Below, piece after piece: positions 61,419 to 64,000 of a DNA stretch of 64,000 bases (position 1 is the stretch's first letter; every line of letters begins with the position of its first letter). Origin of the DNA: Gemmatimonadaceae bacterium (GTDB taxonomy: Bacteria; Gemmatimonadota; Gemmatimonadetes; Gemmatimonadales; Gemmatimonadaceae); assembly GCA_016742275.1 (NCBI GenBank), contig JACVCD010000004.1, forward strand, positions 1 to 64,000. Direction: 5' to 3'. The position numbers and the translations under genes are program-made. Below the pieces are notes generated by a model. That model worked only from the letters and a program-made list of their open reading frames with translations, made no database searches and was not told the origin of the DNA.

Positions 61419-62093
61419 TCAGGAAGGTGGGCTAAATTTTCTAGTCCCGACGTGTACTTCGCATTCGACAAGTATTTTTGCAGCTGAAGCGATCAAACCT
61501 CTCGCTCCCTCGATCAATGAAGCCGGTGTGCGCCCAGGCACTGTAAGCTCTGGCATGCGTTCTGCTATTTGATCTTCGACAGACCGCAGCAGCTCTTCTA
61601 TTTTGGCTATCTTTTCAACTTGCGCACTCGCGCACTCCAGGCGAAAGACAATTGTTGTCCGAAGTGCCCTGGCAGCCTGCGCCAGTCGATCCGCAGACTC
61701 GCCAGCCAACTGCTGAGCAGAAGAGAGCTCCAGTGCTCCGGACTCACTCAACCCACGGTGCAATGACTCGGCCTGTTCCTTGATCTTCTCTGCGAACTCG
61801 ATCAATTCACGTATCGAAGGCTGAACTGCAACGTCATGAAAAAGAGACTGTGTCGGGAGCCACTGAGCATGCTTCAAGTTCTCGCGATTCAAACTTGCAG
61901 CTTGCTTGATCGCCTTCCAAGCAAAGATGGCTGAGATAAGCCCTGCTAGCGCGGACACACCTCCGCCAACATCGAGGACACGATCCCATGGAGACTTCGG
62001 TGACTCAACTACTATAGATACGACAGTATCTCGGACTGGCTTAGCAACTCGAATCGTATCGTGCTTTTGCAGTGACCGTGATTGAGTGCTCAA
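61419..62093 (-). CDS. Membrane protein with coiled helices, third gene of the ATPase/DUF4325 module
   Basis: One transmembrane segment (about 43-63, VSALAGLISAIFAWKAIK) sits after a polar N-terminus. A long helical cytoplasmic or periplasmic part follows (IRELIEFAEKIKEQAESL, VEKIAKIEELLRSVEDQIAE). No family was recognised. Its start overlaps the DUF4325 stop by 4 bp, so it is translated with it. It could anchor or receive the output of that module. Confidence 0.7.
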   Translation of the reverse strand: MSTQSRSLQKHDTIRVAKPVRDTVVSIVVESPKSPWDRVLDVGGGVSALAGLISAIFAWKAIKQAASLNRENLKHAQWLPTQSLFHDVAVQPSIRELIEFAEKIKEQAESLHRGLSESGALELSSAQQLAGESADRLAQAARALRTTIVFRLECASAQVEKIAKIEELLRSVEDQIAERMPELTVPGRTPASLIEGARGLIASAAKILVECEVHVGTRKFSPPS

Positions 62094-62419
62094 GCTCGCT
62101 CCGGCAATGGGCTACCATCCTTTAGTGCCTCAACGATGCTCTCATCAACGATGCGAGCGATATCCTTGCCTGTAAACTCATACTTTGCTCGGAAGCCAGC
62201 CTCACCCAACCGGCGAATGCATAGATCAAACATTCCGAGAAAAAATGAGCTTGTCAGCACAAAAACGTCTTCCGGTACGTAGATGGAGATTCGCTCGAAT
62301 TCCTTCTCGAGAGACTCTAAACGAACATTGTCTCTGACGATTTCACCGCGGCCTCGACCCGAGAAAACGCGGACGCCTTTATCCCTGTGCTCGTCTAGGT
62401 TGACTACTTTTGACGGCAT
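62090..62419 (-). CDS. STAS-like DUF4325 protein (intact copy)
   Basis: A 109-aa protein starting MPSKVVNLDEHRDKG, with VLTSSFFLGMFDLCIRRLGE and YEFTGKDIARIVDES. The LTSSFFLGMF segment matches the STAS-like DUF4325 signature. STAS-like domains bind kinase-type ATPases (as anti-anti-sigma factors bind anti-sigma kinases), so it probably interacts with the adjacent histidine-kinase-like ATPase. Its start lies inside the 3' end of the ATPase copy, overlapping by 41 bp. Confidence 0.8.
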   Translation of the reverse strand: MPSKVVNLDEHRDKGVRVFSGRGRGEIVRDNVRLESLEKEFERISIYVPEDVFVLTSSFFLGMFDLCIRRLGEAGFRAKYEFTGKDIARIVDESIVEALKDGSPLPERA

Positions 62420-62824
62420 ACTCTGAAGCCTGCTGCAGGTTGGTGGGATCGAGGTAAAAGCGAAGCGAGATGAGTGTGCCAGGAAATGAAGTGGCCAATG
62501 TCCTCACCTTGGCAGGATCCGGCGGCAACTCAAGCGAGTTCGGTATGTTGAAGGCAATTGTTCTTTGCCCAGCTTTCTGCTGCCCCTTTGCTGAGAGCTC
62601 ATATTCTCCATCAAAAATGAGCTGGCTTCGGCCTGAGACTAATGTCATGACAGGTGAAAGACCTGCGGCTGTACTTCCTAGGCGACGAAACGCCTCCATC
62701 ATTCTTACTGTACCTTGCCCTCTGTTTCCTACTCTATTGGGCAGCTTGTTCTTTCTACTGACCCGCTGCTGGATCGCAAGAAGAGTCCAAAACGTTTCTT
62801 CGGCTAGCTTCCTAAAAGTACCGA
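62379..62824 (-). pseudogene. Extra 3' fragment of the ATPase gene
   Basis: This is the duplicated C-terminal part of the ATPase (FRKLAEETFWTLLAIQQRV onward to SSQPRRAQG). It lacks the N-box region and a native start; the first internal ATG is at 62702. It is identical in amino acids to the C-terminus of the gene at 62928 and is produced by the tandem duplication. Confidence 0.85.
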
Positions 62825-62968
62825 TACGTAGATGGAGATTCGCTCGAATTCCTTCTCGAGAGACTCTAAACGAACATTGTCTCTGACGATTTCACCGCGG
62901 CCTCGACCCGAGAAAACGCGGACGCCTTTATCCCTGTGCTCGTCTAGGTTGACTACTTTTGACGGCAT
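62804..62968 (-). pseudogene. Truncated DUF4325 copy
   Basis: The duplicated ATG at 62968 begins the same MPSKVVNLDEHRDKG protein, but at residue 48 the duplication joint shifts it into other sequence (SVLLGS) and it stops at 62804-62806. The product would be 54 aa and lacks the LTSSFFLGMF core. Confidence 0.85.
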
Positions 62969-64000
62969 ACTCTGAAGCCTGCTGCAGGTTGGTGGGATCG
63001 AGGTAAAAGCGAAGCGAGATGAGTGTGCCAGGAAATGAAGTGGCCAATGTCCTCACCTTGGCAGGATCCGGCGGCAACTCAAGCGAGTTCGGTATGTTGA
63101 AGGCAATTGTTCTTTGCCCAGCTTTCTGCTGCCCCTTTGCTGAGAGCTCATATTCTCCATCAAAAATGAGCTGGCTTCGGCCTGAGACTAATGTCATGAC
63201 AGGTGAAAGACCTGCGGCTGTACTTCCTAGGCGACGAAACGCCTCCATCATTCTTACTGTACCTTGCCCTCTGTTTCCTACTCTATTGGGCAGCTTGTTC
63301 TTTCTACTGACCCGCTGCTGGATCGCAAGAAGAGTCCAAAACGTTTCTTCGGCTAGCTTCCTAAAAGTACCGATTTTGCGGTGGTGAGTAAGCAGCCTGT
63401 CGATGTCTTTCCTGAGCATTGACTCCGAGGGCAACGACCTCATGCTTTCTGCAATTGTATCTCCAAAGGAGAAAATTGCGAGATGCACATCACCAACATT
63501 TCCGCCTTTGGGCTGCCTTAAATAGGCGGCGATCCACCAGTCGCTCCCTCCAGAATGATCCTCGCAGTTGTTGAGCAGTTCACCCACAAGTTCAGCAAAC
63601 GCCGCTTGTCCCTCAGGCTTCAGCTCGAAATCATATAGACCTAAGCACTTATCGAGATATTCGACCAGTCTCGTGGCTTCAATATCTGCCGGGCTACTCC
63701 GTTTTGCTCGCTCGCCCGTCGCGGCTCCGTTAACCAATGGATGGTAAATAAAATCTGCGGTACCAATGGGCGCTGGGAGACCAATCTCCTTGGGTAGTCC
63801 CGTAGCCATAGCAATCTCTGCTATCGACAGATCTGTCGGAAGCGTACCCGCATATACGACTCTCCCAAGTGACCTAGTCTTTCTTACGACCGCATTTAGT
63901 ACCGCAGCCGCACAGAGGTCAATGTTTGCGCAACTCTCCTGCGCAACTCCTACCCTACCGACTCCGCGAGCTCGCATGTCAGCCAGTGTGGCAATTGCGA
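62928..64000 (-). CDS. Histidine-kinase-like ATPase (N-terminus outside window)
   Basis: The frame remains open to the right edge, where AIATLADM precedes the ATG at 63977, so the true start is probably beyond the window. A GHKL/HATPase core is visible: the N box FAELVGELLNNCEDHSGG, then GNRGQGTVRMMEAFRRLGS in the G2/lid region and LVSGRSQLIFDGEY. No DHp, PAS or receiver domain is seen, so this is a stand-alone ATPase rather than a sensor kinase. It is paired with a DUF4325 STAS-like protein. Its 3' end lies inside the tandem duplication. Confidence 0.8.
   Translation of the reverse strand, partial: AIATLADMRARGVGRVGVAQESCANIDLCAAAVLNAVVRKTRSLGRVVYAGTLPTDLSIAEIAMATGLPKEIGLPAPIGTADFIYHPLVNGAATGERAKRSSPADIEATRLVEYLDKCLGLYDFELKPEGQAAFAELVGELLNNCEDHSGGSDWWIAAYLRQPKGGNVGDVHLAIFSFGDTIAESMRSLPSESMLRKDIDRLLTHHRKIGTFRKLAEETFWTLLAIQQRVSRKNKLPNRVGNRGQGTVRMMEAFRRLGSTAAGLSPVMTLVSGRSQLIFDGEYELSAKGQQKAGQRTIAFNIPNSLELPPDPAKVRTLATSFPGTLISLRFYLDPTNLQQASEYAVKSSQPRRAQG

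Follow-up and report, generated by a model that had tools for sequence, protein, structure and literature searches.

The stretch of DNA analysed here (the window, 64,000 bases) corresponds to bases 1-64000 of a contig of 264,494 bp, in a draft assembly of 4.57 Mb and 33 contigs rated 99.6% complete. Directly 3' of a ribonucleotide reductase gene it carries a conserved three-gene module, which comprises an ATPase with predicted STAS and SpoIIAB-like GHKL domains, a STAS-like DUF4325 protein and a small protein for which a single membrane segment is predicted. A tandem duplication of 549 bp lies across the region where the first two genes overlap, and all the genes of the duplicated region lie on the minus strand. 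The features are the following:

61419..62093, minus strand, third gene of the module, 224 aa from a TTG start, overlapping the DUF4325 gene by 4 bases
62090..62419, minus strand, intact DUF4325 / STAS-like protein, 109 aa
62276..62824, minus strand, tandem unit A, the second unit in minus-strand order, with the 3' part of the ATPase gene and DUF4325 codons 1-48, running on without a break into the remainder of the intact DUF4325 gene
62379..62702, minus strand, surplus 3' ATPase fragment, an ORF of 107 aa with its ATG at 62702 and its stop at 62379
62804..62968, minus strand, broken DUF4325 copy, residues 1-48 followed by SVLLGS out of frame, 54 aa
62815..62835, no strand, joint of the units, with a 1-bp overlap (T at 62825) and no longer microhomology
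62825..63373, minus strand, tandem unit B, the first unit in minus-strand order, with the end of the intact ATPase gene and the broken DUF4325 copy
62928..64340 (contig coordinates, past the window end at 64000), minus strand, intact ATPase with STAS and SpoIIAB-like GHKL domains, 470 aa counted from the first listed start, of which the window holds a part of 356 aa

The two adjacent identical units announced by the original prediction are borne out: 550 bases recur exactly 549 positions further on (62276-62825 against 62825-63374), and the copies are 100% identical. The maximal match is 550 rather than 549 because one base, the T at 62825, is common to both units at the joint. The copies have the same orientation and their outer flanks are unique, as in a tandem segmental duplication. 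A 20-mer taken from the unit has 0 expected occurrences in shuffled sequence; the unit is present at exactly two places in the 4.57-Mb assembly, the 62276 and 62825 copies, and the pair is alone in the 64-kb window, where no further exact repeat of at least 24 bases was found. With a slash at the joint, the sequence reads ...AAAAGTACCGA/TACGTAGATGG..., and the parents read CTTCCGG/TACGTAGATGG and AAAAGTACCGAT/TTTGCGG. A homology-mediated duplication would share several bp or more at its breakpoints; because the overlap is only 1 bp, the event does not appear to have been driven by homology. A transposon or a site-specific origin was rejected on the basis of the absence of inverted repeats of at least 30 bases, of a tRNA and of any Rfam match, and the joint sequence was absent from the viral contigs searched.

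The ORFs and their translations also confirm that one DUF4325 copy is broken at residue 48 and that an extra 3' ATPase fragment exists, while intact versions of both genes are kept as the 470-aa and 109-aa ORFs. The broken copy starts at 62968, crosses the joint after residue 48 and ends with its stop at 62804, thereby losing the invariant Ser58 and the helix that follows it. The 107-aa fragment is devoid of the N-box (N258, H262) and of the glycine boxes (G293, G358, G360). Since the ATPase fragment begins past these boxes and the DUF4325 fragment ends before Ser58, neither of them should be active alone. The intact DUF4325 gene shares 41 bases with the ATPase reading frame, a frame which is now that of the fragment and was formerly that of the full gene. 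The unit length of 183 codons, to which the original prediction drew attention, proved to be without meaning because the ATPase stop lies inside the unit and no reading frame traverses it: 549 is a multiple of 3, yet where the DUF4325 frame passes the joint it is not in register with the ATPase frame.

The names given to the two proteins stand to different degrees. That of the ATPase is upheld mainly by fold comparison, Pfam HATPase_c being matched by one of the nine members of the family with an E of 0.083. That of the DUF4325 protein is supported through its homologues, 4 of 11 of which match PF14213 (best E 5.9e-5), but not by the protein of the window itself, which gives no match; its size and STAS-like character agree with this Pfam family, annotated as STAS-like and of unknown function. 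AlphaFold models of both proteins were built from six sequences, without the plasmid homologues. In the ATPase model (mean pLDDT 68, pTM 0.67), residues 196-445 adopt a predicted Bergerat (GHKL) fold that aligns with SpoIIAB (1tid_A) with a Z of 10.9 and an rmsd of 2.6 over 131 of 136 residues, followed among GHKL proteins by RsbW (Z 8.2) and TRAP1 (Z 7.7), and residues 90-189 resemble the STAS proteins RsfB, RsbV and RsbS in the model, with Z values of 8-9. With Foldseek alone, no match of this model had an E below 0.001, and the comparison of profiles with solved structures by sequence gave no convincing match. The N-box and glycine-box residues N258, H262, G293, G358 and G360 are invariant in all nine ATPase sequences; the Asp usual in the G1 box is frequently replaced by N or S. 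In the DUF4325 model (pLDDT 87), the STAS matches reach a Z of 4-4.5 and are tied with unrelated ones, the best being RsbS (Z 4.5, rmsd 3.8, 83 residues aligned); the invariant Ser58 is predicted at the start of a helix. The serine phosphorylated in SpoIIAA is likewise situated at the start of a helix.

The module belongs to a family of scattered distribution. The ATPase has a match in 8 of 395 Gemmatimonadota genomes, one of the eight being weak and partial. The gene order is the same in Gemmatimonadota and on plasmids from Spirosoma, Pantoea, Providencia, Salinivibrio and Vibrio. A pattern scan of viral contigs detected no ATPase relative, nor did a search of a phage collection at an E of 1e-3. 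The mobilizable Providencia vermicola plasmid NZ_CP145939.1, of 6,778 bp, has all three genes of the module as its main cargo, which makes this plasmid a convenient natural clone of the module for function tests. The third protein, helical outside its single membrane segment as read from its sequence, aligns poorly with its counterparts (14-23% identity), so that the homology of the third genes would rest mostly on their position, their size and the membrane segment. In one Gemmatimonadota genome (L029:4270-5820, G062), the ATPase-DUF4325 pair is followed by an unrelated protein of 516 aa instead of the membrane protein, from which it appears that the third component may be exchangeable.

In the genome studied, the GC content of the module is about 51%, with values of about 50-55%, whereas the adjoining ribonucleotide reductase gene has 61-65%, and the nucleotide similarity to four genomes of the same genus ends at the stop codon of the reductase. 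Searches of 24 other same-genus genomes, and of further ones, did not find the module; because of its low GC and of this absence, we consider it a recent arrival. The 3' side of the same reductase carries other genes in other genomes (loci compared: L021, L022, L023, L052 and L064): a dGTPase-like gene with a JAB-E1 gene farther along in G001; an ImmA/IrrE-type and a DUF4411 gene in G020; an AbiE pair and a short Argonaute together with its partner REase-PNTD in G021; type I restriction-modification genes in G017 and a PIN-domain gene in G022. No defence or toxin-antitoxin-type gene was recognised by eye at this place in G007, G012, G068, G100 and G344. Within the genus, the site thus resembles a hotspot of defence and toxin-antitoxin genes. 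The reductase beside the module (contig C12, 64350-66929; L003:3351-5930) has no insert, and in the same-genus genomes G004, G012, G015, G017 and G023 an insert of about 0.8-1.1 kb interrupts this gene in frame near residues 282-288, so that the open frames are longer, the insert of G012 ending in ...VVHN before a Cys; such in-frame inserts, patchy in the genus, are as expected of an intein.

The duplication was absent from all ten related loci. Nine of these have no direct repeat of at least 30 bp, and the tenth has just one, of 32 bp, which lies outside the module. Relatives belonging to three phyla have the single-copy order, the ATPase gene overlapping or abutting the DUF4325 gene and the third gene coming next; the overlap of the first two is 4 to 89 bases in most loci, with a 3-base gap in one, an arrangement that fits translational coupling. 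No long repeat occurs in the module at any of these ten loci; the single-copy state is therefore ancestral and the duplication, as far as seen, private to the present genome; its interpretation as a conserved trait was rejected, no related locus carrying it.

The best explanation in our opinion, and one we hold with only modest confidence, is a tandem duplication of recent date, illegitimate in origin and devoid of selected function, in a horizontally acquired module: in a single event, 549 bp of the acquired module would have been duplicated by homology-independent recombination, with an outcome that we infer to be neutral or nearly so, without evolved function. That the duplication is real in the cell seems to us rather probable. 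Like the spontaneous tandem duplications of bacteria (PMC11111574; PMC3411829), it is head-to-tail, has a unique joint and leaves the parental sequence intact on both outer sides; it differs from them in its small size (549 bp), in the absence of a visible selected benefit and in being known from an assembly sequence. Natural duplications whose joint shows no sequence identity have been documented in bacteria (PMC11111574). In a survey of Salmonella rearrangements, however, all verified duplications had at least 11 bp of junction microhomology and low-homology joints were taken as probable library chimeras (PMC3411829), and this survey, together with the 1-bp joint, counts against a real duplication.

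The alternative of an assembly artefact, already envisaged in the original prediction beside a very recent event, retains its place since the units are letter-for-letter identical, and we give it a sizeable chance, if less than an even one. Two ends of contigs or read chains overlapping by 549 bp would have been joined unmerged, or a chimeric read incorporated, and the cell would possess one copy. The complete identity of the copies, the draft state of the assembly in its 33 contigs, the disruption of an otherwise conserved ATPase-DUF4325 adjacency and the blunt 1-bp joint, which is just as expected if the overlap of two contig ends had been left untrimmed, are all in its favour. Against it, there is no N anywhere in the 64-kb window, no contig end near the joint and no second such case in the window; moreover, short-read assemblers collapse such repeats more often than they expand them. 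The suspicion that the site lies near an edge did not hold, the edge of the window not being that of the contig: the joint is inside the contig, about 200 kb of which continue past the window end, and the contig-end explanation was rejected. A real duplication and a contig-join artefact would read identically in the sequence.

A reversible switch, in which the recA-dependent gain or loss of a unit would tune the module, for example by a lower translation of DUF4325 and of the third gene in the two-copy state, is very improbable. It draws on the overlap of the genes in relatives, which fits a coupling broken here by the duplication, and on the weak ribosome-binding site of the intact DUF4325 start. 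Homologous recombination between direct repeats of 549 bp can indeed reverse a duplication, but it would merely restore the ancestral state, which makes a switch unlikely. The functional outcome suggested by the original prediction is not supported: the one-copy and two-copy states both encode an intact ATPase and an intact DUF4325 protein, their adjacency alone changing, and the ORF content provides neither different products nor an on/off choice. Furthermore, no relative carries the repeat, so that the architecture is neither conserved nor recurrent; no inverted repeat of at least 30 bases surrounds the unit and no longer direct repeat lies at its ends; and the architecture, a tandem duplication of 549 bp joined at random, is not that of phase variation. 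Still more remote is the idea that the duplication begins a gene divergence or is a step in the inactivation of a costly acquired module, which the foreign and recent character of the module at its present site would suit, but all three genes are still intact with their conserved motifs present.

If we return to a recent duplication without selected function, its only plausible effect would be the separation of the ATPase and DUF4325 genes, which overlapped by 41 bp in the ancestral state. Both the intact DUF4325 gene and its downstream neighbour, the third gene, now come after the 3' ATPase fragment, and their translation may be reduced, because the DUF4325 start sits behind a fragment of uncertain translation and has a weak match to the ribosomal anti-Shine-Dalgarno sequence.

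As to the module itself, our reasoned guess is that it most likely works by partner switching. The protein combining the STAS and SpoIIAB-like ATPase domains would phosphorylate or bind the STAS-like DUF4325 protein, whose state would then control the membrane-anchored third protein. As in the SpoIIAB-SpoIIAA, RsbW-RsbV and RsbT-RsbS pairs, SpoIIAB-type and STAS folds are predicted here together with a small STAS-like neighbour possessing an invariant serine. In contrast to these pairs, the STAS and kinase-like domains are fused in one protein of 470 aa, the G1-box Asp that contacts adenine is often replaced by N or S, the partner is a DUF4325 protein with a weak match to STAS folds, and a membrane-anchored protein takes the place of an adjoining sigma factor gene.

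The location of the module at a defence-rich site, together with its folds, gives a weak, contextual hint of a protective role, possibly anti-phage, or of a role in plasmid maintenance. PADLOC gave no match for the ATPase (the 356-aa part in the window), the DUF4325 protein or the third protein at an E of up to 1, and the publications on DUF4325 or the 'STAS-like domain' contained none on the present module as judged by title and abstract. A GHKL ATPase is known in a defence system, Shedu with a GHKL domain (VcSduA) (PMC12137116), whose GHKL-type domain in a defence-rich setting recalls the present one; unlike it, our module has no nuclease domain that we could find and no match to a PADLOC model. 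We tentatively propose, as a possibility that falls short of being probable, that the module is an undescribed mobile three-gene system, present on plasmids and in chromosomal defence sites of at least three phyla, that would act as a membrane-linked partner switch, possibly in phage defence.

In conclusion, the duplication alone matters little, being an ordinary and possibly artefactual structural variant. It nevertheless flags a conserved mobile module without a PADLOC match or, according to our searches, a described function. If the module is indeed a mobile partner-switch system, the duplication would amount to a natural mutant in which the first two genes are uncoupled. Through its pairing of partner-switching regulator parts with a membrane protein, at a site where other species of the genus have defence or toxin-antitoxin genes, the module is a reasonable candidate for a defence screen.
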